Shown here: piece after piece, positions 45,382 through 61,265 of the stretch | Numbering within the stretch: position 1 is the first letter of the stretch | How the letters are laid out: each line of letters starts with the position of its first letter | Source: Prevotella sp. Rep29 | Lineage (GTDB): Bacteria; Bacteroidota; Bacteroidia; Bacteroidales; Bacteroidaceae | Direction: 5' to 3' | DNA: 64,000 nt | Assembly: GCF_019551475.1 (NCBI RefSeq) | Contig: NZ_CP047159.1 | Span: 1,922,001 to 1,986,000 of the forward strand | Notes under the pieces: generated by a model | Told to the model about the DNA's origin: nothing | Databases searched by the model: none | Seen by the model: the letters and a program-made list of their open reading frames with translations, nothing else | Program-made: the position numbers and the translations under genes

Positions 45382-45401
45382 TTCTCAATTGGTATCATCT
45401 T

Positions 45402-45441
45402 AAATGCACGAAAGACAACTCATACGGTCTTTCGTGCATTT
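45402..45441 (+). terminator. Terminator after ribH
   Basis: A perfect 15-bp stem (AAATGCACGAAAGAC at 45402-45416 and its complement at 45427-45441) with a 10-base loop, followed by TATTATTATAAT. Confidence 0.88.
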
Positions 45442-45513
45442 ATTATTATAATAATGTATAAGGACGCTGCTCCCTATACAAATTTATTCCTGCGGTTTCA
45501 CGCCCAATGAGCG

Positions 45514-46095: not shown

Positions 46096-46189
46096 AAATT
46101 CGTTCATGATGATTTGCCCACAAAGATAATGTAAAATTTCGATAAATGAAAATTTTATTTTATCTTTGCATAGATAATCATGTGTGACT

Positions 46190-46855: not shown

Positions 46856-47448
46856 TACGCAAGAGATATTACAACCTAAATGACCGAAGAATGACGATGG
46901 CGATTGGCATCGCCGTCATCGTGGTGCTCTTCGTTATCTTCAAATGCGGAGGCATGAAATTGGGAACAGCCGCCGACAAGCGAATCAACATCACACCCGT
47001 CCAAATCAAACAGATAAAGGACATCGGACAATGGGAGTTTCTCGCCATCGAAGACGAAGAACTGGTGGACACCGTCAGCAAAGGCATCTTCTCCGACGAC
47101 CAACTCATACGCATCTATTACGGCACCATCCGACTGGGCATCGACTTGAGCAAAACGAAAGACAACTGGATACAGACCGTGGAAGACACCGTCAAAGTCG
47201 TGCTCCCTCCTATCCAACTGCTCGACAAAGATTTCATCGACGAGGCACGCACGAAAGCATTCTTCGAAACGGGAAGCTGGAAACAGAAAGACCGGGAACA
47301 CCTCTACCGGAAAGCACAGCGCATGATGCTCAAACGGTGTCTCACGAAAGAAAATATCCAAACAGCACAAGAAAATGCCGTCGAAATGTTTACCAAACTC
47401 CTCAACGGCATGGGCTACGAACACGTAAACATCATCGTTGAACACTAA
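46852..47448 (+). CDS. DUF4230-domain membrane protein (second of a pair)
   Basis: A 198-residue protein with one membrane helix (about 15-31; TMAIGIAVIVVLFVIFKCG) and a DUF4230 domain. The strand-and-helix order resembles the protein before it (ELVDTVSKGIFSDDQLIRIYYGTIRLGIDLSK, VKVVLPPIQLLDKDFID, ENAVEMFTKLLNGMGY). The two probably arose by duplication and may act together; one is a lipoprotein, the other membrane-anchored. Confidence 0.83.
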   Translation: MIRKRYYNLNDRRMTMAIGIAVIVVLFVIFKCGGMKLGTAADKRINITPVQIKQIKDIGQWEFLAIEDEELVDTVSKGIFSDDQLIRIYYGTIRLGIDLSKTKDNWIQTVEDTVKVVLPPIQLLDKDFIDEARTKAFFETGSWKQKDREHLYRKAQRMMLKRCLTKENIQTAQENAVEMFTKLLNGMGYEHVNIIVEH

Positions 47449-47459
47449 TATTTACTGCC

Positions 47460-48224
47460 ATGAAGACAAAAACAATCCTCACACTGATGACCTTCCTTGC
47501 CGTCGCTGCATGCACATCGGCAAACAAGACAACAGACAAACCACAAACAACAGACAATATGGATACATTCAAGACAAAATCGGGAAAGGAAATCACATTC
47601 ACTCCCATCAAGCATGCCAGCATGGCAATCACGTTCGGCAACACGGAAATACAGGTTGATCCCGTCATCGACGCACAACCGCCGCACACCGACTACAACA
47701 AGTTTCCGAAAGCTGACTACATCCTCATCACACACGAGCACTACGACCATCTCGATGCAGAGGCTGTGAAGGCGCTCAGCAAGGAAAGCACCGTCATCGT
47801 CACCAACAAAAACTCCGCCGAGATTCTCGGAAAAGGAAAAGTCATGGCGAACGGCGACTCACTCAAACTCGCTGACGACATCATGGTCTATGCCGTACCA
47901 GCATACAACACGACGGAAGGACACCTGCAGTTCCATCCCAAAGGACGCGACAACGGGTTTATCCTCGTGCTCGACGGCACCCGCATCTACATTGCAGGCG
48001 ACACCGAAGACATCGAAGAGATGAAAGACGTGAAAGACATCGACATCGCATTCCTGCCATGCAACCAGCCATACACCATGACACCCGAACAACTCCGAAA
48101 GGCAGCCGACATGGTGAAACCGCGCGTGCTCTACCCCTATCACTTCGGCGATACCGACCGCGAAGCCATGAAAGCTGCACTTGACGGAACGGGAATCGAT
48201 GTGAGAATCCGAAACTTCGAATGA
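47460..48224 (+). CDS. Metallo-beta-lactamase-fold lipoprotein (UlaG-like)
   Basis: A 254-residue protein with a lipobox (AVAACT, Cys 18) and a metallo-beta-lactamase fold of the UlaG-like type: ITFGNTEIQVDPVID, the metal site HEHYDHLD (92-99), AVPAYN, YIAGDTE and YPYHFGDTD. It probably hydrolyses a small ester or lactone in the periplasm; substrate unknown. It follows the DUF4230 pair by 11 bases and may be in the same operon. Confidence 0.88.
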   Translation: MKTKTILTLMTFLAVAACTSANKTTDKPQTTDNMDTFKTKSGKEITFTPIKHASMAITFGNTEIQVDPVIDAQPPHTDYNKFPKADYILITHEHYDHLDAEAVKALSKESTVIVTNKNSAEILGKGKVMANGDSLKLADDIMVYAVPAYNTTEGHLQFHPKGRDNGFILVLDGTRIYIAGDTEDIEEMKDVKDIDIAFLPCNQPYTMTPEQLRKAADMVKPRVLYPYHFGDTDREAMKAALDGTGIDVRIRNFE

Positions 48225-48266
48225 AAAACGTTGACAAAACAAACGCAATTTCTCACCGAAAAAGCA

Positions 48267-48402
48267 CCTGCATAAACATACAGAAAAGGACGTATAAATA
48301 TACAGTTGAACTTTCGCTTTCCAAAAGTGCCACTTTTAGCTTGCAAAAGTGGCACTTTTAGGAGCTAAAAGGGGAACTTTTGGAGTGCAAAAGTGGCACT
48401 TT
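48267..48402. repeat. 22-base-period dyad array, locus D (inverted)
   Basis: From left to right: CTGCATAAACATAC, TATAAATATAC, the half-unit GTTGAACTTTC, then 15-base units at 48322, 48344, 48366 and 48388 with 7-base spacers. Three units are perfect dyads of the AAAAGTG-N-CACTTTT type; the third is AAAAGGGGAACTTTT. This is the arrangement of locus C in reverse orientation. It lies between convergent genes. A further GCATAAATATACAG motif follows near 48471. The rest of the gap to 48533 shows nothing else. Confidence 0.9.
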
Positions 48403-48533
48403 TGGAAAGCCCCTCCTAACATACTGAATTTCAGAAGCTTACAAAACCCGTTTTACTCGCTCCGTCTTTGCATAAATATACAGTCGCGGAAGTAAGGAAC
48501 GACATCAGTTTGTCAATATTTCTGCCGACTTAT

Positions 48534-49292
48534 TTATAGAACACACCTATACTCAAAATGCGGAATCGGTTTCAGCTTGAAGAGGTTCTTCACGTGTTTG
48601 TCGTCGATGAGCGCTTTCACCTTGGGGTCATCGCACTCACCCGTCCGGATGTAACGGTCGAGCGTGGCGTAAGTGAAGCCGAGGTTGTCCTCGTCGCTCT
48701 TGCCGCAGAGACCGTCTGAAGGAGTCTTCTCCACAAGGTCGATGGGCAGCCCGAGTTCCTTTCCGATGGCAATCACCTCGTCCACGGTCAGTCCGCCAAG
48801 CGGAGCGAAATCGCCGGCAGCATCGCCATAGCGCGTGCTGTAGCCCACCCAGTCCTCAGACAGGTTGCACGTGTTTGCCACCCGCCCGTTCATCGACTGC
48901 GACACGGCATAGAGCGTCGTCATGCGCACCCGTGGCGGCAGGTTGATGGTGGTCTGATTGCTCACCTCCGCACCGAGCGTCGCCAGTTGCTCTTTGACCG
49001 CTGCCATCAGCGTGTTGCAGGTGTCGCCGATGTTCACATTGCAGTTGCGGATGCCGAGGTGGTTGATAAGGCGCATACTGTCGGAAATGTCCTTCTGCAC
49101 GCCGTTGGGCATCGTCACGCCGATTACTCGGTCCTTACCCAAAGCCTCCACGCACAGCGCAGCCACGACACTGCTGTCCTTGCCACCCGACACGCCGAGC
49201 ACGGCATTACAGCCTTTTCCATTCTCCTCGAACCAGTCACGAATCCATTGCACAACTTGGTCTTTCACTATTTTTGCATTAAATTGTTCCAT
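48534..49292 (-). CDS. nadE: Ammonia-dependent NAD synthase
   Basis: A 252-residue enzyme making NAD from deamido-NAD, ammonia and ATP. PP-loop SGGKDSS (about 34-40), TCNLSEDWVGYSTRYGDAAGDFAPL, EKTPSDGLCGKSDEDNLGF. There is no glutaminase domain. I use the ATG at 49292; the ten extra residues of the longer frame overlap the direct repeat and lack conservation. Confidence 0.95.
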   Translation of the reverse strand: MEQFNAKIVKDQVVQWIRDWFEENGKGCNAVLGVSGGKDSSVVAALCVEALGKDRVIGVTMPNGVQKDISDSMRLINHLGIRNCNVNIGDTCNTLMAAVKEQLATLGAEVSNQTTINLPPRVRMTTLYAVSQSMNGRVANTCNLSEDWVGYSTRYGDAAGDFAPLGGLTVDEVIAIGKELGLPIDLVEKTPSDGLCGKSDEDNLGFTYATLDRYIRTGECDDPKVKALIDDKHVKNLFKLKPIPHFEYRCVL

Positions 49293-49305
49293 ATTATATA
49301 CCCTC

Positions 49306-49331
49306 ATCCGTGTCGGGCGCAACTTTTAATT
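49306..49331. repeat. Left copy of a direct repeat flanking the AbiE segment
   Basis: ATCCGTGTCGGGCGCAACTT begins this 26-base copy. The right copy, at 51795, differs at two positions and by one inserted base near the end. The pair brackets about 2.46 kb holding the LRR and AbiE genes. Confidence 0.65.
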
Positions 49332-49345
49332 GATAATTATCTTTT

Positions 49346-49987
49346 TTATATAATGAAATGATCTTTGCGTAGGTTCTCTTCCCATGTCTGAAAGATTTCA
49401 CCGCCACGCATCAAGTATAACCCGGGAAAAGGCCTGTCGAATATCCTATCAAACTTCGGTAATCTTTCACAATCATCAACGGCAGTGATATGAACCATTA
49501 CTGCCACCTCCTCATTAAAAGCCATATCTTCGATACCACTTTTTGCAAATGCGTATTCATACGCTATCACCACCATGGGACTAAATACAACCTTTGTCAA
49601 GTTCGGACATTCGAAAAAGCCATATCGGGCAACACCCTTAACAATTGTACCCTTTACCTTCGGAGGGATAACGAGTTCACCGCAAATTTTATCTTTATCA
49701 CAAGTGAGGACGCCTATCATTCCATGGGCGACAAACACTGGAACGTCTGACTTGTCAACAGACAAAACGCATAATGTATATTCCTCCTCGAAATACTCCT
49801 CTATCACCGTTGTCCATTGTGCAACATTCTCCCAGACATATTTGTCGAAACGTACAGACAGCACAATACGCAAGCGTTGCTTTCCATCAACCTCGTGCAG
49901 ATACTTATCACCAGTCTTCAGTTCTGGTCGCTGCTGGCAGTATCCGTGCTCTTCAATCTCTTCAGTGTATGTGATGATGTGTGGCAT
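49346..49987 (-). CDS. LRR_5 (BspA-like) leucine-rich repeat protein
   Basis: A 213-residue protein without a signal peptide. Residues about 110-155 contain BspA-type repeats (GTIVKGVARYGFFECPNLTKVVF, VIAYEYAFAKSGIEDMAF). The N-terminal 100 residues are acidic and unassigned. Such repeats mediate protein binding. It is transcribed away from the AbiE pair; minus-strand CAAAGATA at 50014-50021 is a likely -7 box. Whether it takes part in defence is unknown. Confidence 0.7.
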   Translation of the reverse strand: MPHIITYTEEIEEHGYCQQRPELKTGDKYLHEVDGKQRLRIVLSVRFDKYVWENVAQWTTVIEEYFEEEYTLCVLSVDKSDVPVFVAHGMIGVLTCDKDKICGELVIPPKVKGTIVKGVARYGFFECPNLTKVVFSPMVVIAYEYAFAKSGIEDMAFNEEVAVMVHITAVDDCERLPKFDRIFDRPFPGLYLMRGGEIFQTWEENLRKDHFII

Positions 49988-50155
49988 AAGAGGATTCCAT
50001 AGCTATTACAATACAAAGATACACTTTTTTATTGAAAGCAGAAAGCAATCTATAAAAATGTTGACTAAAAAAACAATTTGGTGCAAAGAAATGGCAATAC
50101 CGTTATACAACAGATTCCAAAAAATACGATTTTTCGAACAGAAAATAAACTTTTT

Positions 50156-50187
50156 CTTGGTTTTCTGTACGGGAATTAGTATATTTG
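50156..50187 (+). promoter_or_regulatory. Promoter of the AbiE operon
   Basis: CTTG (50156-50159), one base from the TTTG consensus, 20 bases, then TATATTTG (50180-50187). The ATG follows eight bases later, so the leader is extremely short or absent. Confidence 0.6.
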
Positions 50188-50195
50188 CACTCGAA

Positions 50196-50837
50196 ATGAA
50201 TGCTATTATACCATACAACGAATTAAAAATGCTGGGAAATATTCCCATTGACAGCGGAGTACTGAGAAGCCTTTACGCCGACTGCAAGTCCCCCAATATG
50301 AAAATTTCCAATCTCGAGAAAAAGGGGATTTTGATTCGGTTGAAACGTGGAATGTATGTGGTTTCGCCCGAAATAAGCGGTAAGCAGCCATCGCTTGAAC
50401 TTATCGCCAATCACATCTATGGTCCTTCGTATGTTTCCCTTCATTACGCTTTGCGCCACTATGGTCTGATTCCTGAACGAGTGTATATGCTCACATCTGT
50501 GACAACTCGCCACACCCGTCAGTTTGAAAATTCTTTGGCAACTTTTTCCTACCGAGGCGTTTCAAAAGAATATTTCCCGATTGGCATCAAGAGAGAAGAG
50601 GAAGAGGACATTTCCTATCTGATTGCCACGCCAGAAAAAGCCTTGTGCGACATGCTGATGGCAGAAAAGCACGTGCCTGACCAGTCGGTGACGAGCCTTG
50701 AAGTGTTTTTTGAAGAAGATATGAGAATCAATGTGGATGACCTTCGGCAGATGGATTTGAAAATCATACGAGCCTGCATGGAAAACGGGAACAAGAAAAA
50801 CACACTAATGAACTTACTAAAACTGATTGAACGATGA
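50196..50837 (+). CDS. AbiEi-like antitoxin (type IV toxin-antitoxin)
   Basis: A 213-residue protein with an N-terminal winged-helix region (about 10-60; KISNLEKKGILIRLKRGMYVV) and an AbiEi-type C-terminal domain (YVSLHYALRHYGLIPERVYMLTSVTT, YLIATPEKALCDML). It should bind its own promoter and counter the AbiEii nucleotidyltransferase. I start at 50196; the frame is open upstream but that part runs antisense to the LRR gene. It overlaps the toxin gene by four bases (ATGA). Confidence 0.85.
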   Translation: MNAIIPYNELKMLGNIPIDSGVLRSLYADCKSPNMKISNLEKKGILIRLKRGMYVVSPEISGKQPSLELIANHIYGPSYVSLHYALRHYGLIPERVYMLTSVTTRHTRQFENSLATFSYRGVSKEYFPIGIKREEEEDISYLIATPEKALCDMLMAEKHVPDQSVTSLEVFFEEDMRINVDDLRQMDLKIIRACMENGNKKNTLMNLLKLIER

Positions 50838-51658
50838 CAATATTCGATGAAATGGTAGCGGAGTTTCAACCGCAGAATCCCACTGAAAAGAGTAACGCCA
50901 GAAACGAAGTGATGCAACGGATAACACTGTCCGGTCTGCAACGTGGTGGTTTTTTCGAACATGCAGCTTTCTATGGTGGCACTTGCCTGAGGATTTTCCA
51001 CGGGTTGCACCGTTTTTCTGAGGACATGGATTTCACTTTGACGAAAAAAAACAGCGACATCCATCTCGAACAATATTTTCCACAGATTATCGAAGCGTTT
51101 AAGCTGACAGGCCGCGAAGTGGAAATCAAGAAAAAGGAAAAAAAAACTTTCGGCAAGGTGGAGTCTGCATTTCTCAAAGACAACACCGATGTTTATGACA
51201 TCGCTTTTCAAACCGAAAAAAACGTGAAGGTGAAGATTGAATTGGACACCAATCCACCATTGGGGTTCGACACAGAACAGAAAATTCTGTTCAAACCTTT
51301 CACTTTTATGGTACGCTGTGTCACACTTCCCGACCTATTCGCAGGAAAGATGCATGCAATAGTCTTTCGAAACTGGAAAGCCCGCGTAAAAGGGCGCGAC
51401 TGGTACGACTTTCAGTGGTATGTAGCGCACCAAATTCCTTTGAATTTCTCACATTTGCAAAACCGCATCTACGATTTCAACGGCATTCTGGTGTCGAAGG
51501 ATGATTTTATGGCTGCTTTGAGGGAACGGCTTGTCCAAACGGACATTGATCTGGTCAAGCAAGACGTCCTGCGTTTTTTGCGATCAGACCCGCACGAACT
51601 CGACATCTGGTCGAACGATTATTTCCTGCAATTGGCAGACATGATCGTGTTCAAATAA
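50834..51658 (+). CDS. AbiEii/AbiGii-family nucleotidyltransferase toxin
   Basis: A 274-residue DNA-polymerase-beta-like nucleotidyltransferase. Active-site motifs: YGGT (47-50), FSEDMDF with metal-binding D64 and D66, a further Asp in KIELDTNPP, and DLFAGKMHAI. In AbiE systems this protein blocks growth of phage-infected cells; related toxins modify tRNA. It appears complete and paired with its antitoxin, so the module may be functional. Confidence 0.9.
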   Translation: MTIFDEMVAEFQPQNPTEKSNARNEVMQRITLSGLQRGGFFEHAAFYGGTCLRIFHGLHRFSEDMDFTLTKKNSDIHLEQYFPQIIEAFKLTGREVEIKKKEKKTFGKVESAFLKDNTDVYDIAFQTEKNVKVKIELDTNPPLGFDTEQKILFKPFTFMVRCVTLPDLFAGKMHAIVFRNWKARVKGRDWYDFQWYVAHQIPLNFSHLQNRIYDFNGILVSKDDFMAALRERLVQTDIDLVKQDVLRFLRSDPHELDIWSNDYFLQLADMIVFK

Positions 51659-51745
51659 TTGCTTCCCAAGCATCAATCCTGCGAAGTTCGCATAAGTCTT
51701 ATCTTCGCATAAATCATGCAATCCTTACAAATCCTCCATAAACAA

Positions 51746-51780
51746 CAAGAGCCGGGACAACACGATTGCCTCGGCTCTTG
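51746..51780. repeat. Hairpin after the AbiE operon
   Basis: A 9-bp stem (CAAGAGCCG at 51746-51754 with CGGCTCTTG at 51772-51780). It could end AbiE transcription or the opposing minus-strand operon, but neither side has a clean T-run. Confidence 0.5.
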
Positions 51781-51794
51781 CCATCTATGACGTT

Positions 51795-51821
51795 ATCCGT
51801 GTCGGGCACAACTTCTAAATT
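51795..51821. repeat. Right copy of the direct repeat flanking the AbiE segment
   Basis: ATCCGTGTCGGGCACAACTT, then CTAAATT. It matches the left copy at 49306 in the same orientation. The following bases up to 51961 are AT-rich and show no supported gene. Confidence 0.65.
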
Positions 51822-51961
51822 CCTTTCTTACTTATTGAAAACTATTATTATTTATTCACTTATCATTAAAATTATTTGGTTGTATGTTATCACTGGTGTC
51901 CAAAAAACATTAAAAACCACACATAATATAACAAATCAGAATGATTATAAAGCATTATAGG

Positions 51962-52141
51962 CTAAGCAATGATAATTAGCCATAGTATACCAATGAAAAG
52001 TATTCCTACGCCTAATGCAATCAAGGCAACCTTAAATAGCATTCCTATATAAGAGAGATCATATTCCCCCCTTATATATTGCACAATGACATATATAACA
52101 AATAACAAAAAAAATATTGAAAAAAATATTAATCTCACCAT
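51962..52141 (-). CDS. 59-residue two-helix membrane protein
   Basis: Read directly from the minus strand: MVRLIFFSIFFLLFVIYVIV, a short polar loop (QYIRGEYDLSY), then IGMLFKVALIALGVGILFIG and more, ending IIIA. Two membrane helices (about 4-20 and 38-58). I do not recognise it. It is the last gene of the AT-rich minus-strand run, 89 bases after the next gene's stop. Too short to be certain. Confidence 0.55.
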   Translation of the reverse strand: MVRLIFFSIFFLLFVIYVIVQYIRGEYDLSYIGMLFKVALIALGVGILFIGILWLIIIA

Positions 52142-52230
52142 AATCTTTTGTTTTTAGTTTGTATCAATTCATTATCACAACTATTACAAATGTAATGGAC
52201 GAACTACCGACAAATGAATACCGTACGTTT

Positions 52231-52920
52231 TCACCCTATCGGCTTTTCTAAAAAATGATAACCAGTTCTGATGTAATTAAAACTTCCCGTATCACTAATT
52301 CCAATTGCACCTTCAATGGATAATATGGCCTCGCTTGTCCTCAGTCCGAGCACAGCTCCACGGAGATGAATCCGATATTGCCCCGAAGCCTCTTTTCCTA
52401 TTTTGCCATTTATTGGCGTCGGGGTAGAAAGTGAGACTTGGTCTATAGATTCAATTTCCCATGTATAAAATTCATTTTCGCAGATTTTTCTTATCTCCGA
52501 TCTGAAAAATGAGTCGAAGTTCGATGCTGTAATGTTGTCCAACACAGATTCAATCAAGCGATTTTGTTCCTCCTCATATAGGTTCTTCCACAATTGCCGA
52601 ACACCAGAATAGTTGCTCTGCGACAATTCCGCATTCAACTCACGGCTTTCACTTATAAAAGTGGCATAATTCTCAAAAGATTTCGAGAAAAAATCATCCA
52701 TCTTTCTATATTGAGACCTGATTTCATAAACATCATTTATTCGCGGTGCGTTTTTATTATGAAAATAGTCTATGTATTCCTGTGCAGCACTCTCTCCTTC
52801 ACGTGGCGAAGAATACCTAGTGTCTCGCAATTGCTCATACTCCAACTGAGCATCACGTTTTTCTTCACAAGAAAATGCGACAAACGCAATAGTCAAAACA
52901 ATCAGAATTATCTTTTTCAT
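52231..52920 (-). CDS. Lipoprotein, function unknown
   Basis: A 229-residue protein with a lipobox (AFVAFSCEE, Cys 18), a helical, charged first half (about 20-125) and a beta-rich second half (ENEFYTWEIESIDQVSLSTPTP, SGQYRIHLRGAVLGLRTSEAIL). No family recognised. It is six bases after the DUF4190-like gene. Confidence 0.7.
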   Translation of the reverse strand: MKKIILIVLTIAFVAFSCEEKRDAQLEYEQLRDTRYSSPREGESAAQEYIDYFHNKNAPRINDVYEIRSQYRKMDDFFSKSFENYATFISESRELNAELSQSNYSGVRQLWKNLYEEEQNRLIESVLDNITASNFDSFFRSEIRKICENEFYTWEIESIDQVSLSTPTPINGKIGKEASGQYRIHLRGAVLGLRTSEAILSIEGAIGISDTGSFNYIRTGYHFLEKPIG

Positions 52921-52926
52921 TTATCA

Positions 52927-53172
52927 TCATCTTTCTGTCATATACAAAAAACCTAGTACAGAACTAATAATTGTCGCTATTAAGAAAATAATAGACAATA
53001 CAATTCCAACCATTGCTCTCGAAGAAGAATCAGACTTGTGCCCAACTATACCAAGCACTAATCCACCAATAGTAACAGGATAACCTATCAAAGGTAATAT
53101 CCATGCGACCACACCAATCAATCCAAAGATAAGGGAAGCTGTTGATGCCCCCGAAATTTTCCTGTCATTCAT
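52927..53172 (-). CDS. DUF4190-like small membrane protein
   Basis: An 81-residue protein with two Gly-rich membrane helices (ASLIFGLIGVVAWILPLIGYPVT and AMVGIVLSIIFLIATIISSVLG) separated by GGLVLGIVGHKSD, the pattern of DUF4190-type proteins. Function unknown. Confidence 0.7.
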   Translation of the reverse strand: MNDRKISGASTASLIFGLIGVVAWILPLIGYPVTIGGLVLGIVGHKSDSSSRAMVGIVLSIIFLIATIISSVLGFLYMTER

Positions 53173-53200
53173 AATTTCCTATTTTTATAATAATTAATCT

Positions 53201-53464
53201 TCACCATTTTGAAACAGCTTTATAATATGTTCTATCATTATATTTTTCTGAACTTTCTTTTTCTTCCATTTCTTCTGTTGATTCTAAGACTCTATTTTTG
53301 AAGTTTTTATAAAAAAAGATAAGTAGCAGAATTGCAAAAAGATACATGATTAAAAGAAGAATAAACAAATTAAGACTTATAATTCCAACAAACCATTCCG
53401 CTGTGACACACACAAACGGAGAAACAAGCATTATTCCCAATATAACCTTTTGTCGCTTGCTCAT
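53201..53464 (-). CDS. Two-helix membrane protein, function unknown
   Basis: An 87-residue protein from the ATG at 53464 (MSKRQKVILGIML), with two helices (about 6-25 and 30-52) and a charged cytoplasmic tail (NRVLESTEEMEEKESSEKY). A longer frame to 53509 would overlap the patatin gene; the shorter start leaves a 5-base gap. Confidence 0.6.
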   Translation of the reverse strand: MSKRQKVILGIMLVSPFVCVTAEWFVGIISLNLFILLLIMYLFAILLLIFFYKNFKNRVLESTEEMEEKESSEKYNDRTYYKAVSKW

Positions 53465-53469
53465 GATAC

Positions 53470-54300
53470 TTATTGTTGTCTGTTTTTTATTTCTATCAAT
53501 TCGTCCCAATGTTCTTTAGCTTTATCCCTGCCTAATCGCAACATCTTTTGGCAGTTATTGCGCCCGAAACTGGCAGCGGTAAAATTGGGTAACCGTGGAT
53601 GAATACAAATATCGGCATCTTTTATGTTTTGAGAATAACGTTTAAAATCTGGACGGCTTAAAAACCAACCTGCAAGACCGCCGAGTCCCAACGATGTTCC
53701 AATATTAAAACCTCCATTCTGTTGCAAATCTATAGCAATAACTATGTCTGCACCCATATTCCTCACCACATCAACAGGGAGATTGTTGATAACTCCTCCA
53801 TCTACAAGATACTTATTACCCCATTTCACAGGTTCGTACATTTCTGGAACAGACATAGAGGCTAATATAGCTTTATAGAGAATGCCACTGGAAAGGATGA
53901 CCTCTTCAAAGGTGTTTTCTTCTGCCGTTACACATCTAAAAGGAATTTTCGTGTCCCGAAATTGTTCTACTCTACGATTTGAAAGAAGACTTTTCAGTTT
54001 AGCTTCTATCCTATAACCTTCCAGAAGATCTTGCCACTCTTGTGATAAGAACAACAACTTCAGTTCTTTTAAAGAATACCCCGAAGCATAAAGGCCACCG
54101 ATAATGGCACCGATACTGGTTCCTGCTATATAATCAATTTTTATGCCGGCATCTTCTATTACTTCCAGAACTCCAATTGTTGCTGCACCTTTCGCGCCAC
54201 CACCTCCAAGTGCAAGACCAACTTTTGGCTGACTGGCACAAAAGGGCATAGCAACAAAAAATATGCACAACAGACTATATAACCTGATAGACTTTTTCAT
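53470..54300 (-). CDS. Patatin-like phospholipase with signal peptide
   Basis: A 276-residue protein with a signal peptide (1-23) and a compact patatin domain: oxyanion loop GGGGAKG (32-38), nucleophile elbow GTSIG with S62, and the catalytic Asp in DGG (D167). It lacks the POTRA and barrel domains of larger RssA/PlpD-like proteins. It should hydrolyse lipid acyl esters in the periplasm or outside. Its place in this AT-rich cluster is notable, since patatins also serve as effectors in some defence systems, but those are usually cytosolic. Confidence 0.9.
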   Translation of the reverse strand: MKKSIRLYSLLCIFFVAMPFCASQPKVGLALGGGGAKGAATIGVLEVIEDAGIKIDYIAGTSIGAIIGGLYASGYSLKELKLLFLSQEWQDLLEGYRIEAKLKSLLSNRRVEQFRDTKIPFRCVTAEENTFEEVILSSGILYKAILASMSVPEMYEPVKWGNKYLVDGGVINNLPVDVVRNMGADIVIAIDLQQNGGFNIGTSLGLGGLAGWFLSRPDFKRYSQNIKDADICIHPRLPNFTAASFGRNNCQKMLRLGRDKAKEHWDELIEIKNRQQ

Positions 54301-54306
54301 AAAAAT

Positions 54307-54711
54307 TTAATCCGGAATAATCGTTTTCTCACAAGGTCCCTCCCAATGAGCATTGTTCTGGAATGGGTCAGAGTCATACCATCTCCAAAATCGGACTTTT
54401 ATTCCCACACTAGCAGGAATTAGCTCTGCTTTGTAATCTCTTTCTGAATATGTTTTTCTACCAAAAAACGGGACATGCTGCCCTCTGCAAGAATGAGTTC
54501 CCTTTACCTTAATCTTTCCATTAATTTCATCCACCTCTACAGATGTTACAATCAATGTTCCTTCCACATATTGCCTTGGGGCGAAGCAATTGTCATAATT
54601 CTCTACACAAAATTGTTCCAAAACTGCTTTAATCTGGGATTTAGTTTGCGCACTAGTCACATTGCTCACTACGAGCATCATGACAATCATCAAAATTTTT
54701 AATTTTTTCAT
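54307..54711 (-). CDS. Secreted protein, function unknown
   Basis: A 134-residue protein with a signal peptide (1-22, VTSAQT). The mature part has four Cys residues (FCVENYDNCF, HSCRGQ, EGPCEK) that could form disulphides, and a beta-strand pattern (GTLIVTSVEVDEINGKIKVKG). Not recognised. It is six bases before the patatin gene. Confidence 0.65.
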   Translation of the reverse strand: MKKLKILMIVMMLVVSNVTSAQTKSQIKAVLEQFCVENYDNCFAPRQYVEGTLIVTSVEVDEINGKIKVKGTHSCRGQHVPFFGRKTYSERDYKAELIPASVGIKVRFWRWYDSDPFQNNAHWEGPCEKTIIPD

Positions 54712-54752
54712 AATCTAATTGTATTTAAAGTTAATAACTATAATAAAACTTT

Positions 54753-55088
54753 TTAAAGCCAAAGAACATAGTCTTGCCAGTCGGTAACCATATGGAACAA
54801 TAGACCTATTCCGATTGGACGAAGCCACCAAGGCCAATTTAATCTTTCATATGGGAGAATACATAAAATAACATAAACACAAATGGCATAATAGGAATGA
54901 AGTGGATGAAATCCTATACTCATCCTATTTGGATCAAAGATTGGGGTTGCCAACAAATGGTCTATATCCACAGCCATCGTTGCCAGCATTATGAACAATG
55001 CCTCCCAACGCCGTTCTTTTTTAAAAAAAAGAGCAAAAATGAAAGGGGCAAAGAAGTGCAGCCCATAATGAGTAATTTCTCTATACAT
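54753..55088 (-). CDS. DUF6122-type membrane protein
   Basis: A 111-residue integral membrane protein with conserved polar residues of the family: HYGLHFFAPF, AVDIDHLLATPIFDPNRMSIGFHPLHS and HMVTDWQDY. The Asp and His residues inside helices suggest a metal site, as in YdjM-like membrane hydrolases, but no activity is established. Confidence 0.8.
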   Translation of the reverse strand: MYREITHYGLHFFAPFIFALFFKKERRWEALFIMLATMAVDIDHLLATPIFDPNRMSIGFHPLHSYYAICVYVILCILPYERLNWPWWLRPIGIGLLFHMVTDWQDYVLWL

Positions 55089-55105
55089 AACTCTCCATAC
55101 AAAAA

Positions 55106-56296
55106 TTATTTTCTACAGCCTCCAACAACTCTATCACCAATCAACAGTTCAAAAATATGCCATCGCCCACCATCCAGATATCTACTCAGATAAATTGATT
55201 TCGAATGATTTCCTTTTTCAATGTTCACATTTGAAGAACTTGATGTATTATAATAATAGTTTTCTCCCAAAGCTCTAACTTTTAAAGTAAGATTCGCATC
55301 CCTAAAACCATAATAATCAAATGATAAGTATCCTGTACTATAATCAAAAGATGTATTTTTTACAATGAATGGTGCTATTTCATTCATAGAACTTTTAAAT
55401 CCTTCAAAAGATTCTTCAATCTGCTGACGTTGCTCTCTCTCGACTTCCAAATCAGACTTAATGCTATCAATATCTTTTTTCATCATGGATATTTTTGAAT
55501 TCTTATTATCTATTGTTCGATTAGCATCAGAAAGTTCTTCTTTCGTCTCATTCAAACTTCCGTTCAACAGCAACAATCCAATACCACAGGTAATAACTGC
55601 AAAACACAAAAGAATCACATAAGTAAATTGTTTCTTTTGCTGACTGATTTTCCTATTTTTATCTATTAATTCATTATTTTCATTTTTTAATTTTTCAATT
55701 ATGCTATCTTTTGCTTTTAATGTGTGGATAAAACTTGTAACTCGCTCTATTTCAGCATCGGTTTTTACTATATATAAATTGGGGTACCGTTTCATCGCTT
55801 CCACAACTTCATCCTTCGACATTTCTAAGCTAATCTCCAAACAATCGTTTATTGATATTGAGAAATCCATCGGTGGCAAATCTTGAGAATTAGAGCCAGA
55901 GATGTTGATACGTTCAATTATCTTTGTTGTGTATTCGTTTAGAGCTACAGATTCCTCAACATAGCTTTTTATTGACCATTCCAAACTCCCATTTGTCGAC
56001 ATGTGAAGAATTTCGCCGGCATTAATCATATCTGCATAGACATCATCAAATACGGAGAACAAAAAATCCACATCATTATAAATACAATCTATACATAAAC
56101 AAATGCCAAAATAATTGTTGCTGAACTTCCTGACATATCCATAGTGGAGCAAATTGCCCTCCCGATGGATGACAATTTGCCCTTCATTTTTAGATTGTCT
56201 TAAGAACTGCTCAAAAAATGTTTTGGTATGGTCTCCTGGATAAGATGAGAATCCTCCAGGCAGTGAGCCAAAATAGTATATCTGTGGTTTCATCAC
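55106..56296 (-). CDS. Single-pass membrane protein with soluble N-domain, coiled coil and outer beta domain (GTPase cassette gene 5)
   Basis: A 396-residue protein without a signal peptide. Residues 1-185 form a cytoplasmic domain (QIYYFGSLPGGFSSYPGDHT; HYGYVRKFSNNYFGICLCID). A short charged coil (about 190-222), one membrane helix (224-246), a long coiled coil (about 247-300) and a C-terminal beta-rich domain (about 305-396; SFDYSTGYLSFDYYGF) follow. Its N-domain weakly resembles that of the protein encoded at 56845 (RxxxNYFGICL against RGSYFALSL). It may be the sensor or scaffold of the GTPase cassette. Its start overlaps the protease gene stop by four bases (ATGA). Confidence 0.7.
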   Translation of the reverse strand: MMKPQIYYFGSLPGGFSSYPGDHTKTFFEQFLRQSKNEGQIVIHREGNLLHYGYVRKFSNNYFGICLCIDCIYNDVDFLFSVFDDVYADMINAGEILHMSTNGSLEWSIKSYVEESVALNEYTTKIIERINISGSNSQDLPPMDFSISINDCLEISLEMSKDEVVEAMKRYPNLYIVKTDAEIERVTSFIHTLKAKDSIIEKLKNENNELIDKNRKISQQKKQFTYVILLCFAVITCGIGLLLLNGSLNETKEELSDANRTIDNKNSKISMMKKDIDSIKSDLEVEREQRQQIEESFEGFKSSMNEIAPFIVKNTSFDYSTGYLSFDYYGFRDANLTLKVRALGENYYYNTSSSSNVNIEKGNHSKSIYLSRYLDGGRWHIFELLIGDRVVGGCRK

Positions 56297-56841
56297 TCAA
56301 ATCGGATAACTTTTTTCCTTAAATCTACAGTGTAAGACTTCTTTGCCAAATTATCAATAACAGATGAACCTACAAGGATTGCCGCTTCCATATTAGGCTC
56401 TAATATCGCTGCAATATCCTTCAACGTATGTGGCTTCCCGTTCTTGTCCATTATTGTTACTTCCCGAAGATTGAACACCCTCTTTTGAACAATACTTCCA
56501 TCTGCCATTTGAACAGGAATAGGGGGGCGTTCATCTGAATCTCTCAACGTACCCTGTTTCATCATATCTAGTGCTTCCATAGGGGATATCAATATACCAG
56601 AACACCCTGTGTCAAAAATTGCATCGTAACTGTTCTTGCCATTAAGGTTGACATGAATTGTTTTAAGATTGCTATCCGTCTGCTTGAAATCGATTTCGAA
56701 TACGTTATTGGAAACTTCCTGCTTTTTCTTGCCTCCTTTCATTTCATATTTATAAGGATCGTATTCACTTCTCTTTGAGTTGCAGGATGCTAATAACAAG
56801 ACTGTTATCAGCATAAGTGTTGTTTTAACTAGCTTTTTCAT
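56293..56841 (-). CDS. Retropepsin-like aspartic protease lipoprotein (GTPase cassette gene 4)
   Basis: A 182-residue lipoprotein (lipobox LLASC, C20) with a retropepsin-like domain: strand HVNLNGKNSYDAIFDTGCSG with catalytic Asp in DTG (77-79), VQMADGSIVQKRVFNL as the flap-like hairpin, and ILVGSSVIDNL as the conserved late strand. As a single-domain protease it would act as a dimer at the periplasmic face, where it could cut the extracytoplasmic domains of its membrane neighbours. It is three bases after the gene at 56845. Confidence 0.82.
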   Translation of the reverse strand: MKKLVKTTLMLITVLLLASCNSKRSEYDPYKYEMKGGKKKQEVSNNVFEIDFKQTDSNLKTIHVNLNGKNSYDAIFDTGCSGILISPMEALDMMKQGTLRDSDERPPIPVQMADGSIVQKRVFNLREVTIMDKNGKPHTLKDIAAILEPNMEAAILVGSSVIDNLAKKSYTVDLRKKVIRFE

Positions 56842-56844
56842 GGT

Positions 56845-58170
56845 TTATTTTTTAGTTTTGTTATCACCTTCTGTACCCGTTTGCGGATTTTTTGTTTCAT
56901 TGACACGCTGTCTAGAACTGAAGCCTACCTGCGGATATTCTCCTCCTCTTGACCTATTTGATTTTTCTAATCTTTCTATCTTTTCATCTTTTTCTTTATT
57001 TTTTTGTTTATATGATTCTATATCTTGCTGTAGTTTAGACAACTCCCCCTGTAAATTGTGAATCTCTTCGTCTTTTTTCTGGAGTTCTTCTTTTAGTTGA
57101 TTGACAGGCACCATTTCAACCTGCCCAGTCATATCTTCGGAATCCTGGGACGATTTATTATCCCCAGAACATCCTTTCATGTTTAGAAGTAAACTCATGA
57201 CCATAAGCAATAGTAACATCGTATTTATTGCAGGCAAATAATCAGAGATTTTCTTTTTTTTCCTCTTTGTAGGAGGATAGTTGGGGGATTTTCCAACTCC
57301 ACCAAGAGATGCTACAGCTTGTGTCACTTTGCTGCGAAGATCCTCGTATTGCTGTTGTGATGCTTGGCTGCTTTGTTTAACCTGCTCATATTGATCCCTC
57401 AATGACGTTATCTCCTTTTTGAGCGCACTCAATCTCTTACCTTCATTGCGATTTGCTTCCTGCATAGTCACCTCAAGTTGCTTTGCAACACGTTCCAGTT
57501 CTGTGATTCTCAACGCCTTTGATTGGGCATCATTTTTTGCGGTTTGTGCCTCTTGGCGATACTTTATAGCCAATGCCGCAATATCATCTTTCGTATCTTC
57601 CTTCTCCGTAACGATGACACGTCCCTTGTCTTTTAGTAGTTGGACAAATGCCAAAGAGTCACAGTCATAAATACTGCAATAGGTATCTTTGGTAAATGTT
57701 GCTGTCTGGTGAAATGATCCGTCAAATGCTTTTTCCACGTTCCCCAAACTTACATAGGAAGATTGTAGTTTTGCACAGAGTTTTTCAAATGCTGCCGTAT
57801 TTTCAAAATTGGATACGACATATTGAACATTTGAGTTGAGATAGACCCCAAGAACATTTTCTTTGACGACCTTTTCTAGAAGTCTATACACATCGCTAAT
57901 TAATGCACAATATTTTTGGGGAAGAACCAGTGATAAAGCAAAGTAGCTTCCTCTACCTGCTGTATCTTTTACTTTTTCACTCAACAATAGCGTATATACG
58001 CTAGTCCAAGTTCCTTTCCAATAACGTGCTTCAACAAACAATGCTTCTGGCTCTTTAACCGGTCCAAGAGCAAAAAACTCATTTATAACTCTTCTCGCAA
58101 GTTCATAATCTATACCAGATGTGTAACGCTCACTGGCATCTAATGGTTTTCCATGAATAATAATCTCCAT
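56845..58170 (-). CDS. Membrane protein with GAP1-N-like domain and two coiled coils (GTPase cassette gene 3)
   Basis: A 441-residue protein. Residues 1-185 form a soluble domain beginning MEIIIHGKPLDASERYTSGI, with DTAGRGSYFALSLVLP; this resembles the GTPase-associated protein N-terminal domains described with TRAFAC GTPases in bacterial conflict systems, an assignment from memory. Then come a long coiled coil (about 195-285), a Lys-rich stop-transfer (TKRKKKK), one membrane helix (311-330) and a second coiled coil outside (about 352-405). It is six bases after the GTPase gene, so the two products probably interact. Confidence 0.7.
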   Translation of the reverse strand: MEIIIHGKPLDASERYTSGIDYELARRVINEFFALGPVKEPEALFVEARYWKGTWTSVYTLLLSEKVKDTAGRGSYFALSLVLPQKYCALISDVYRLLEKVVKENVLGVYLNSNVQYVVSNFENTAAFEKLCAKLQSSYVSLGNVEKAFDGSFHQTATFTKDTYCSIYDCDSLAFVQLLKDKGRVIVTEKEDTKDDIAALAIKYRQEAQTAKNDAQSKALRITELERVAKQLEVTMQEANRNEGKRLSALKKEITSLRDQYEQVKQSSQASQQQYEDLRSKVTQAVASLGGVGKSPNYPPTKRKKKKISDYLPAINTMLLLLMVMSLLLNMKGCSGDNKSSQDSEDMTGQVEMVPVNQLKEELQKKDEEIHNLQGELSKLQQDIESYKQKNKEKDEKIERLEKSNRSRGGEYPQVGFSSRQRVNETKNPQTGTEGDNKTKK

Positions 58171-58176
58171 ATCACT

Positions 58177-59121
58177 CTACCATTTATTTGTTATTTCTTT
58201 CCATAAATCACGTGGATATACATCCGCAGCAATATTGTAGGTCTTAAAAGTGTTTCCAAAATTATCTGTTTGTTTAGAAAACATGCCTGTACAAAATGTC
58301 TTAAAAGAGAAATTATCTACCGTCATCATAAATTTTGTTACTTTCATGGATGAAAACAACGACGGATAATATATTTCTGCATCTTTTCTTGCACCTTTAA
58401 GATCATTACACCCATTTATGTCTCCGAAGGGTGTCATATCAATCTTGTTATAAAGTAAGATAATCTTATCTCTATTTTTATTGATAGCTGGATAGAAATG
58501 ACCAAGAAAGCGTTGCTCATACGACTGCCGATGATAGCCGTCTACACGAAAAGATAAATCAGAGTCAAGATCAAGCAAAGCGACATAAGACTTAGGATTA
58601 TTACTTACCATAATAGCTGCCAAATATGGTTCTACCACATTATTTTTCCCTGCTCTTATCTTTGCTGGGTCTGTTGTATAAAAATCTTCACCAGGTGCTT
58701 CAAGCAGTTTGGCAACTTCCTGACCATTTTTATATACATTGACAAGCAAGAACTTTACAGTTCCTTGTAATGCCGTTGTGGTGTTAAGGCTATTTGCGAA
58801 GTCAATACAATCTTGTTGATACTGAACTGTGTTTAAGAATGTAGGATCCGTCTTTATCGTATAACCTTGGCTACGCAAAAATTTAGCTAAACGAACAAGT
58901 ATCATTGACTTTCCACTTGACGGAGGTCCTACGAACACAACTATTGGTACAGTCTGATTAACGATAGTTGGTGTTGCCACGCCACCAAGAGGTTCATCCA
59001 TTAGTGGTTGTGTGTCATTTTCACTATGTGATGTCAACACAGGATTCTCAATATTTTCTGCGGACACTTCAGGAGATGTTTGCTGTTGGAGATTATTTTC
59101 TCCAGATTCGATTATTCCCAT
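58177..59121 (-). CDS. TRAFAC-like GTPase (GTPase cassette gene 2)
   Basis: A 314-residue cytoplasmic P-loop protein. An acidic, disordered N-terminus (1-55) precedes G1 GPPSSGKS (65-72), a G3 region EAPGEDFY (141-148) in place of a standard DxxG, the strand VALLDLDSD, and G4 NKID (225-228), which favours GTP over ATP. This pattern fits the divergent double-GTPase group named in surveys of bacterial conflict systems. It probably acts as the switch of the cassette, reading or driving the membrane proteins on either side. AT-rich codon use unlike the housekeeping genes. Confidence 0.8.
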   Translation of the reverse strand: MGIIESGENNLQQQTSPEVSAENIENPVLTSHSENDTQPLMDEPLGGVATPTIVNQTVPIVVFVGPPSSGKSMILVRLAKFLRSQGYTIKTDPTFLNTVQYQQDCIDFANSLNTTTALQGTVKFLLVNVYKNGQEVAKLLEAPGEDFYTTDPAKIRAGKNNVVEPYLAAIMVSNNPKSYVALLDLDSDLSFRVDGYHRQSYEQRFLGHFYPAINKNRDKIILLYNKIDMTPFGDINGCNDLKGARKDAEIYYPSLFSSMKVTKFMMTVDNFSFKTFCTGMFSKQTDNFGNTFKTYNIAADVYPRDLWKEITNKW

Positions 59122-59148
59122 AATATTTAACTTTATTGATTAATCATT

Positions 59149-60228
59149 TTAAATCGTATCATAATTTCGAAAAAAAGCAAAAAGAAGAAAAGCAACAAGG
59201 TCGCATATCAAAGCTATGATAATCCATTGTAACATTGTCATATCGCCGAGACGCCCCTTAAAGATATCACTCCATACTGATATAGTATCAAACATGCGGT
59301 TAGAAGAATAAACTTTTGCCTTTTGTGCATATTTTGAATAATCTGATGGCATTTTTGCAATAACTTCTCCGTTTTGCTTATCGTTGTATTTATAGAATGC
59401 TGATATTGAACCATCTTTCAACACGTCAGGCAAATCGTTAATTTCAAGAAATTCTATGGTGCCAAGCATTTCGGTTAATTTATTATTTTGATTTTTTTGC
59501 CGTTCATAGTAGTTATCTATTACTGCTATCTTCTTATTTTTTTCTCCTTCCATACGGGTAATATATTTAACCTGTAAATCTTGTATGCGACTTCGCTGTG
59601 TCACACCTCTGTCACCAACATCACGTTTATCATCAAATATGATATACTCATTGTTATCTCCATACATTTTTGCATCCTTACGTAGGCTGCTTTCTGTTGA
59701 CTTTAATATACTTATACAAGCATCGCCAAAACCATAATGACCATCCATGGTGTTGACAATTTCACGTGAAAACGCCTGCTGATTAGTATTAACTACTGCT
59801 TCAATAGCCATTCGAGCTGCATTTTGTCGGTCATTTATAGCCTTAACTTCATTGGTTGTGTTATCAATAACATATTGTTTGGCACTTGCTAATTCTTTTG
59901 TAAGTATCGCATAACCATGTTTTTCTACGAAGAAATAATGTACATTTGTCGTAAAACTAAAGAGCCAAAAAATAAAGAATCCAAGAAGATTAAGCGCAAA
60001 TTTACTTCGAGATGCACCTACTCGCTTTTTCATTTCTATAATGGCGTTGGTCAGACACCACCCGGCTAAAACAGAGATAATCATAACCAATATGAAAATA
60101 AACCACATATTGGTGCCATTGAGTAAATTCAATGACAATGATGTTGCCGTAAAATAGGCACTAAGGCTTGCAAAGAGCAAATAGCCAACTAAACAAGCTA
60201 ATCTCAGAATAAGTTTTCCGTTTTTCAT
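59149..60228 (-). CDS. Four-helix membrane protein with large extracytoplasmic loop (GTPase cassette gene 1)
   Basis: A 359-residue protein. Three N-terminal helices (about 7-29, 41-63, 77-98) are followed by a 230-residue outer region rich in charged helices (about 105-330) and one C-terminal helix (335-355), which places both ends in the cytoplasm. This is a sensor-like layout, but no known ligand domain is recognised. It is the first gene of the run and starts 75 bases after the terminator of the upstream RNA. In its leader, CTTGAACT and AGTTCAAG (about 60253-60291) form an inverted repeat. Confidence 0.72.
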   Translation of the reverse strand: MKNGKLILRLACLVGYLLFASLSAYFTATSLSLNLLNGTNMWFIFILVMIISVLAGWCLTNAIIEMKKRVGASRSKFALNLLGFFIFWLFSFTTNVHYFFVEKHGYAILTKELASAKQYVIDNTTNEVKAINDRQNAARMAIEAVVNTNQQAFSREIVNTMDGHYGFGDACISILKSTESSLRKDAKMYGDNNEYIIFDDKRDVGDRGVTQRSRIQDLQVKYITRMEGEKNKKIAVIDNYYERQKNQNNKLTEMLGTIEFLEINDLPDVLKDGSISAFYKYNDKQNGEVIAKMPSDYSKYAQKAKVYSSNRMFDTISVWSDIFKGRLGDMTMLQWIIIALICDLVAFLLFAFFRNYDTI

Positions 60229-60303
60229 TTTTACTCACAGAAATTTTTGCCTCTTGAACTCCCGAATTCAGCATTAATAATTAAGTTCAAGTTTATGGAA
60301 ATG

Positions 60304-60629
60304 AAAAAAGGCATGGGAGTTTCTACTTCTCGCCCATCCCTGACCTCAGGCCTTCGCTTTGCCCCCGTACAAGGATAAGCAACGCAGCCAGCCCACGCCA
60401 AGCGATTATATTCTTATAATTCACTATACATAATAATATATAGTTAGAATATAAATCACCCACGCAGACGTTCCGTTGCATTACCTCTGTGTACGGTTTC
60501 AAAGTTGCGAAGTTTGAGGTCACAGAATAGTAACGTCCGTAAACGCCTTTTCGAGATTAGCCCTCACAATTGGTTCTTAATCTCATCCATCGATGTTTGA
60601 CCCACCTGCCCTCTAAGAGCTGGCTTCGT
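60304..60629 (-). ncRNA. Putative structured RNA of about 325 bases
   Basis: It has its own consensus promoter and ends in a hairpin with a T-run. Long-range pairs are visible on the minus strand: GCCAGC near the 5' end with GCTGGC late in the RNA; GAGATTA with TAATCTC; GACGTT with AACGTC enclosing CGTTAC/GTAATG and CTGTG/CACAG; and an AU hairpin ATATTCT/AGAATAT. It lacks the conserved cores of RNase P RNA, tmRNA and SRP RNA. The Rfam motif called Bacteroidales-1, known for a promoter and terminator at its ends, is one candidate. A 66-codon frame inside it looks accidental. Confidence 0.6.
60313..60337 (-). terminator. Terminator of the structured RNA
   Basis: ATGGG (60313-60317) pairs with CCCAT (60333-60337), with further AG/CT pairing inside. 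The A-run at 60304-60309 gives a run of T residues on the minus strand. It stands between the RNA and the GTPase cassette, so read-through here could control the cassette. Confidence 0.65.
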
Positions 60630-60635
60630 CGGTGA

Positions 60636-60667
60636 CAAAATTACGAATTTATTTTTATGCAAGCAAA
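60636..60667 (-). promoter_or_regulatory. Promoter of the structured RNA
   Basis: On the minus strand: TTTG (60664-60667), 20 bases, TAATTTTG (60636-60643). A near-perfect Bacteroidota promoter; transcription would begin about 60629. Confidence 0.78.
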
Positions 60668-60712
60668 TATTTTTTAGTCTTTTTTAATTCAACATGAATA
60701 AAACAACAAAAA

Positions 60713-60738
60713 CACGGATGTTTACTCAAACATCCGTG
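60713..60738 (-). terminator. Terminator of the thioesterase gene
   Basis: An 11-bp perfect stem (CACGGATGTTT at 60713-60723, complement at 60728-60738) with a 4-base loop. On the minus strand it is followed by TTTTTG. It lies 41 bases past the thioesterase stop. Confidence 0.88.
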
Positions 60739-60779
60739 CGCGCGTAAATAATTAATAATGTCTATTTCCTTATTACCAC

Positions 60780-61265
60780 TCAGAACGCCAGGAGTTCTTC
60801 GCCTTCGAGGTCGCAGGTGGTGAAGCCCATTTCGCGCGTTTTGTCCTCGTTCATGGCGTAATAGGTGACGTCGCCCTCTGCACAGAGTTGGCTTTGGGCG
60901 TTCTCAAGTGTGACGTGAATCGTGATAAAGTTGCGCTTGCTCTCAACGATATGCGCCCGGAGAATCAGCTGCGGGTCGGTGGTCATGACTGGTTTCTTGA
61001 ACGATACGCTCAGGCGGCTCGTCATGCCTGCCGTCTGCAACTTCCTGAAAACGACCCATCCGGCTGTCTCGTCGATGAGCGCACTGATGATGCCGCCGTG
61101 AAGGGTATCGACCCAACCTTGATAGTGCTCTTGCGGGCGCCAGAAGCTGACCACTTCGTCACCATCCTCGAAAAACTCCATGTGAAGCCCGATGGGATTG
61201 TCCGGTGAACATCCGAAGCAGTCGTATCCTTCTTTCTTGCTCCATGGATTCTTTATCTTTCTCAT
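60780..61265 (-). CDS. PaaI-family hotdog-fold thioesterase
   Basis: A 161-residue protein with the PaaI/YbgC-like core: CFGCSPDNPIGLHMEF, then QGWVDTLHGGIISALIDETAGW, where the HGG and Asp/Glu helix carry the active site, then SVSFKKPV. It should hydrolyse acyl-CoA thioesters in the cytoplasm; substrate unknown. A 23-base gap separates it from the DUF5686 gene upstream in transcription. Confidence 0.9.
   Translation of the reverse strand: MRKIKNPWSKKEGYDCFGCSPDNPIGLHMEFFEDGDEVVSFWRPQEHYQGWVDTLHGGIISALIDETAGWVVFRKLQTAGMTSRLSVSFKKPVMTTDPQLILRAHIVESKRNFITIHVTLENAQSQLCAEGDVTYYAMNEDKTREMGFTTCDLEGEELLAF

Follow-up and report, generated by a model that had tools for sequence, protein, structure and literature searches.

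A five-gene cassette on the minus strand of a 64,000-nucleotide stretch of the Prevotella sp. Rep29 chromosome (contig NZ_CP047159.1, 2.73 Mb, positions 1,922,001 to 1,986,000; hereafter the window) is a real conserved unit of some gut Bacteroidales. Its packed open reading frames (ORFs) encode a membrane protein (p1), a GTPase (p2), two single-pass coiled-coil proteins with related N-terminal domains (p3 and p5), and a lipoprotein aspartic protease (p4). Our leaning, held at little better than even chances, is that its products form a trans-envelope receptor complex based on a GTPase switch, with a pair of longin-like domains regulating the GTPase. Domains of the longin type regulate small GTPases and are met chiefly in eukaryotes.

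The cassette loci were found by searching with the GTPase alone and then reading its neighbours, which gave 17 loci besides the window (L002-L009, L054-L059, and L062-L064). Gene order was kept in all of these as far as the contigs reach: p1 preceded the GTPase gene and a p3-like single-pass protein followed it in 17/17 loci, and p4 and p5 came next in the 15 loci with a long enough contig, L004 ending inside p4 and L006 after p3. The p4 of L008 was found by profile search, p5 of L003 is interrupted and split into two ORFs (L003:11867-13059), and L058 and L059 have one additional coiled-coil gene between p3 and p4. The L004 record is titled as a Bacillus coagulans metagenome-assembled genome yet carries a Bacteroidales cassette, and is probably mislabelled or a mixed bin. 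Identity of the GTPase to the window copy drops to 25% in the divergent loci. Profiles built without the ten divergent loci were tested on these (L009, L054-L059, and L062-L064) and matched p4 and the p5 N-domain in 10/10, p1 in nine (the p1 of L064 was recovered by phmmer), and the p3 N-domain in seven. The proteins at the p3 position in L058 and L059 matched the p5 profile rather than that of p3, and p3 of L063 was assigned by position. These two p3-position proteins (L058:9267-11399 and L059:4276-6396) have a p5-like N-domain and, by eye, Cys-rich zinc-ribbon-like stretches before the transmembrane (TM) segment.

Co-occurrence of the genes in other genomes had been set beforehand as a refutation test of the original prediction, which was made from the letters of the window alone, and it was found both in the 17 loci and in a genome survey. 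Separate searches with p2 and p5 of 398 genomes of the genus selected an identical nine, the window's genome included. The GTPase profile (E below 1e-20) matched 11/398 genomes, two of which (G509 and G620) hold TIR fusions, and the p5 profile over the N-domain matched precisely the nine non-TIR GTPase genomes; nine further genomes with p5 matches only to the coiled coil and outer part were left out of this count. The chance of identical nine-sets under independent placement is ~1.6e-18, a value overstated owing to shared descent, and the nine genomes include copies only 25-31% identical to that of the window. Beyond the genus, the order (393 genomes) yielded three strong GTPase matches outside the window's genome, from three other families; the phylum (296 genomes) gave no such match except the window's own, and p2 was without a match in 72,556 plasmid and 50,697 phage records.

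The hydropathy scan predicted one TM segment in each of p3 and p5, and Lys plus Arg residues were more numerous before it than after it (6 vs 2 in p3 and 5 vs 1 in p5). As positive charge is richer before the segment, the N-domains are placed inside and the coiled coils outside, in agreement with the topology originally proposed. The p5 protein has 129 homologues at E<=0.001, and its AlphaFold2 model (47 sequences) reached a mean predicted local distance difference test (pLDDT) score of 83.6. The modeled N-domain begins with two strands and finishes with two helices, as does the longin arrangement described in PMC10933270, and two of its structure matches have titles naming a longin domain; a longin topology of this domain is thus supported by the model. 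From residue 183, the model shows a single long helix that includes the TM segment, and then the outer domain. The outer domains of p5 vary between relatives, its far end being exchangeable. The DENN or d-DENN domain that can follow a longin was not found, DENN being absent from the Pfam matches listed for p3 and p5.

Profile comparison places the p3 and p5 N-domains as paralogs (E 1.5e-8 over 167 columns), and from this homology a longin topology is predicted for p3 as well. As the N-domains are paralogous and that of p5 is longin-like, direct regulation of the GTPase appears to be indicated. Arg73 of p3, which falls between beta4 and beta5 when aligned to the p5 model, was present in all 45 sequences compared (the window copy, those of 15/17 loci, and 29 homologues from databases), and is a candidate arginine finger. 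L058 and L059 contributed no p3-position protein to this alignment; by eye, theirs also have an Arg at the site. Arg44 of p5 was present in 133/135 sequences. The original interpretation had anticipated the conserved unit, the GTPase, the outer domains, and the protease, and had missed both the paralogy of the N-domains and the longin likeness of p5.

The inner GTPase of the original prediction was recovered with its G1, G3, and G4 motifs and free of TM segments. From 238 p2 homologues at E<=0.001, a 22-sequence alignment showed the G1 residues, EAPGE, and NK-D to be invariant. In the motif table, which covers the window and 19 loci, G3 reads E[AGS]PGE in 18/18 cassette loci, and G4 is NKVD, NKAD, or NQVD in three. 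The same GTPase family occurs fused to TIR domains within the genus: TIR domains (TIR_2, E 1e-11 and 3e-18) lie N-terminal to the GTPase in L060:8050-9612 and L061:7656-9053, and the GTPase domains of these proteins align with p2 at an hhalign E of 1e-48 over 249 columns (every hhalign E-value here is single-pair). The fused proteins differ from p2 by the N-terminal TIR domain and by an Asp in G3 where p2 has Glu. A second TIR protein lies directly downstream of the TIR-GTPase in L061. The profiles of p1, p4, and the p3 and p5 N-domains had no match in L060 (17 kb) or L061 (11.5 kb).

The four-helix p1 with a large loop was confirmed. TM helices were placed near residues 6-25, 41-60, 75-98, and 335-354, and the loop, of ~235 residues and helical, joins the third of these to the fourth. 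By hydropathy the window copy shows three segments and most relatives show four, the third being taken from the relatives and from the AlphaFold2 model, which is all helical (mean pLDDT 82.7, 9 sequences). No Pfam family matched p1 at E<=1. The lipoprotein retropepsin also held: p4 carries a lipobox and exceeds the Pfam cut-offs of PF13975 (gag-asp_proteas, 29.9 bits vs 28.2) and PF13650 (Asp_protease_2, 29.5 vs 24.3), so that it is a retropepsin-like aspartic protease by both active-site motif and family profile. The D[TS]G motif was kept in 14/15 aligned copies, L059 having DTA. Like p4, the secreted bacterial retropepsin RloA is a DTG retropepsin exported from the cytosol, and PerP is another secreted bacterial enzyme alike to p4; the latter differs from these as a lipoprotein encoded inside a putative GTPase-receptor operon. 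Secreted Pseudomonas retropepsins dimerise and cleave substrates (PMC12239564).

The closest parallels are the longin heterodimers that act as GTPase-activating proteins (GAPs), namely FLCN-FNIP2, NPRL2-NPRL3 (GATOR1), SMCR8-C9orf72, and Lst4-Lst7. These share with the cassette two N-terminal longin-like domains that work with a small GTPase, an invariant Arg in one subunit, and membrane-linked signaling. Longin domains have been described as GTPase platforms in eukaryotes and Asgard archaea, with a proposed kinship to, or origin from, the roadblock GAPs (PMC3521125, PMC10933270). In SMCR8 and C9orf72 the longins form a pocket for ARF1 and SMCR8 puts Arg147 in the active site (PMC8213707). The longin domains of NPRL2-NPRL3 and of FLCN-FNIP2 interact, and the loops that carry NPRL2 Arg78 and FLCN Arg164 are analogous (PMC7464330). 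The cassette differs in that its longin-like proteins are bacterial, single-pass membrane proteins without DENN and share a gene cluster with their own GTPase, the retropepsin lipoprotein p4, and the four-TM p1. The proposed mechanism is modeled on these known systems, whose ingredients recur in the cassette as a single GTPase and two longin-like subunits that are paralogs. The p3 and p5 proteins would span the inner membrane, each keeping its longin-type N-domain in the cytosol and extending a coiled coil with an exchangeable end outside. Their N-domains would pair as a heterodimeric platform that binds p2 and sets its GTP state, as a GAP or a guanine nucleotide exchange factor, with Arg73 of p3 as a possible arginine finger. 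A ligand or strain at the outer domains, aided by p1, might alter this control, the p4 protease may cut or reset the outer part, and GTP-loaded p2 would relay the signal inward to an output.

Two other kinds of GTPase-regulator pairing were compared. In MglA-MglB, a bacterial Ras-like GTPase is likewise encoded alongside its regulator, a roadblock GAP with a fold of the longin/roadblock kind, whereas the p5 model has the longin rather than the roadblock strand and helix order and the cassette has two membrane subunits in place of a soluble homodimer; an MglB-type roadblock regulator was therefore rejected, as the p5 N-domain model is not helix-first. The DO-GTPase systems with GAP1-N1 or GAP1-N2 partners (PMC7159879) share with the cassette a conserved Walker B Glu, a DO-GTPase hallmark present in p2, adjacent partners, TM segments, and outer FnIII-like or other beta-sandwich domains, and the zinc-ribbon-like stretches seen by eye in L058 and L059 are a further likeness. 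They differ in that no GASH match was found in the cassette and that the retropepsin and p1 are additional. Neither DO-GTPase1 nor DO-GTPase2 matched p2 in Pfam at E<=1, no DO-GTPase2 or GAP1-N2 match was found in the window's own genome, and no GAP1 family was among the Pfam matches listed for p3 and p5. Comparison profiles were built from L079 and L081-L086 (six sequences each for DO-GTPase1 and DO-GTPase2, seven for GAP1-N1). By hhalign, p2 scored E 8e-4 against DO-GTPase2 and 6e-3 against DO-GTPase1; since DO-GTPase2 scored 2e-6 against an unrelated ABC ATPase control, the likeness reflects a shared P-loop class at most. A by-eye likeness of the p3 N-domain to GAP1-N1 was dropped after profile comparison (E 0.31, and 0.19 for p5, against the shallow seven-sequence profile). 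On these sequence comparisons the cassette does not appear to be a member of the DO-GTPase/GAP1 systems, while GAP1-N domains may share a fold with the p3 and p5 N-domains as further unrecognised longin-type members. The words longin and retropepsin do not occur in the available part of PMC7159879, the main paper on GTPase conflict systems.

The searches also agreed with the original statement that no described system was known with this gene set. A match of the GTPase and N-domains to a housekeeping complex, the second refutation test set beforehand, was not found in the searches made. Among p1, p2, p3, and p5 there was no match above the curated cut-offs of Pfam or NCBIfam; p4 alone passed in Pfam and none of the five in NCBIfam. 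No defence model of a described anti-phage system was matched, PADLOC giving background hits only to the p2 P-loop or mainly to the p3 and p5 coils (best E 1.3e-6) and none to p1 or p4. No bacterial operon of this kind was found in the open-access articles searched, a scope that excludes subscription papers and most preprints.

Five closely packed genes had been predicted and the ORFs lie where the original prediction put them (Table 1), separated by 27, 6, 3, and -4 bases; the last gap is -1 with the ATG start of p5, at which aligned relatives also have a Met. A DUF6122 membrane protein gene, outside the core, begins 17 bases downstream of p5, so that the transcript may exceed five genes and the DUF6122 gene is possibly cotranscribed with the cassette. 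ORFs at this position vary in size across relatives, as read from position and without a search for DUF6122 itself.

Table 1. Coordinates of the cassette genes, their motifs and domains, and the adjoining DUF6122 gene in the window.
Feature	Position	Strand	Description
p1	59149-60228	-	359 aa; membrane protein
p2	58177-59121	-	314 aa; GTPase, no family name, no TM
p2 G1	58906-58929	-	GPPSSGKS; alignment
p2 G3	58687-58701	-	EAPGE; alignment
p2 G4	58438-58449	-	NKID; alignment
p3	56845-58170	-	441 aa; single-pass coiled-coil protein
p3 N-domain	57601-58170	-	residues 1-190; inner side
p3 Arg73 codon	57952-57954	-	invariant in alignment
p3 TM	57184-57240	-	residues 311-329; hydropathy; coiled coil outside
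p4	56293-56841	-	182 aa; lipoprotein retropepsin-like aspartic protease
p4 active-site DTG	56605-56613	-	retropepsin-like
p5	55106-56296	-	396 aa from GTG; 395 aa from ATG at 56293
p5 N-domain	55892-56293	-	residues 1-134; longin-like, AlphaFold2 model
p5 TM	55565-55621	-	residues 225-243; hydropathy; coiled coil outside
p5 outer beta-sandwich	55109-55375	-	residues 307-395; AlphaFold2 model
DUF6122 membrane protein	54753-55088	-	PF19617 E 8.3e-36

The ~550 intergenic bases upstream of p1 (60229-60779) had no Rfam match at the gathering score. Thioesterase-like and DUF5686-like genes, named by eye, lie upstream of p1 and are conserved in relatives, and a thioesterase match at 1e-20 was found in 36/80 genomes of the genus. 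An accessory stretch of 15.4 kb (45381-60780) separates the RibH-like and thioesterase-like genes of the window; in it the cassette is accompanied by a patatin-like gene and a pair of AbiE genes. The thioesterase gene of L118, L119, and L124 lies 2.9-3.7 kb from matches to the window gene at 44171-44905 and the RibH-like gene at 44905-45381, in a relative orientation that differs from that of the window. Across 13 thioesterase regions no ORF matched a cassette protein at 1e-6, and L126 and L130 matched no window ORF at all. The patatin-like phospholipase (53470-54300, minus strand, PF01734 E 1.6e-29) has an N-terminal hydrophobic segment and lies in the same direction a few genes past p5. The AbiEi and AbiEii genes (~50238-51658, plus strand, PADLOC E 3.6e-71 and 1.3e-108) are ~3.4 kb downstream of the cassette, and the candidate defence genes HEC-01A and HEC-01B (L063:2744-4587) are ~0.34 kb from the cassette of L063. 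Defence families were not enriched around the cassettes relative to control flanks: PADLOC at 1e-15 gave 48 families for 96 flank proteins vs 76 for 96 controls, a coarse test that counts families rather than members and names the first 25 listed. The flank set comprised proteins no shorter than 150 aa encoded up to seven ORFs away from a cassette, the window's own flanks being left out, and the controls were 96 of the 126 proteins of the thioesterase loci; the 30 omitted were mostly orthologues of the thioesterase and DUF5686 proteins and, from L119 and L124, of the TPR and RibH proteins, with some others. BACON was the commonest flank family (5/96 proteins).

Four other explanations were weighed against a longin-regulated receptor. 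The likeness to longins might be a common alpha/beta arrangement, with p3 and p5 representing a Bacteroidales-specific fold that scaffolds a membrane machine. The longin assignment is somewhat weakened in that the subunit is unnamed in three of the five p5 N-domain match rows. Against a generic fold, which we consider unlikely, speak the two titles that name longins, the origin of the other three chains in longin-containing complexes, and the strand and helix order of p5. A sensor that responds to envelope stress, mucin, or surface glycans and in turn adjusts envelope biology, with no role in conflict, is rated as rather unlikely; BACON is labeled by Pfam as a putative binding domain only, a separate BACON gene was not found in 10/16 loci with p5 complete or split, and the patchy distribution is ill-suited to a core envelope task.

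The same patchiness, that of an accessory element (9/398 in the genus, three beyond the window's genome in 393 of the order, the window's only in 296 of the phylum), favors instead a phage-defence or conflict system analogous to DO-GTPase/GAP1, in which attack would be sensed by the complex in the envelope and an effector set off through the GTPase. Because defence families are not enriched in the flanks, this explanation rests on the TIR-fused relatives in L060 and L061, the patchiness, and the analogy, the cassette design resembling the GAP1-N2 systems as described in PMC7159879; the variable p5 outer domains and the AbiE and HEC-01 genes near two cassettes also agree with it. Pfam, NCBIfam, and PADLOC recognised no killing domain within the cassette, the partner profiles match nothing in the TIR-GTPase loci, and p2 is absent from the phage and plasmid records searched, so that a conflict role is judged distinctly unlikely. 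The kinship with conflict systems suggested by the original prediction is weakened by the comparisons with DO-GTPase/GAP1 systems and by the flanks, although relatives of the GTPase are fused to TIR domains. Least probable, and in our estimate quite doubtful, is proteolysis as the output, with p4 cutting the outer stalks of p3 or p5 to free an inner domain and the GTPase only gating access. Regulated proteolysis has precedents in PerP/PodJ and SpoIIGA, the p4 gene sits between those of p3 and p5 and had a profile match in 11/11 loci tested (L008 and the ten divergent loci), and the Pseudomonas enzymes cited above cleave substrates; against this, neither a cleavage site nor a freed inner fragment is evident and p4 of L059 has DTA in place of DTG.

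As a receptor complex on a GTPase switch, the cassette could tentatively, and with less confidence than the reading itself, represent a bacterial class of transmembrane receptors in which a longin heterodimer gates a dedicated GTPase, the counterpart of FLCN-FNIP or NPRL2-NPRL3. If so, longin control of GTPases extends beyond Asgard archaea and eukaryotes, and a bacterial longin-GTPase operon would bear on the origin of longin regulation. An operon that couples one GTPase to a pair of longin-like proteins crossing the membrane would illustrate GTPase-based signal transfer across the envelope, in a small system that brings together the genes for GTPase, regulators, outer sensor, and protease and that could be studied in a culturable gut bacterium.

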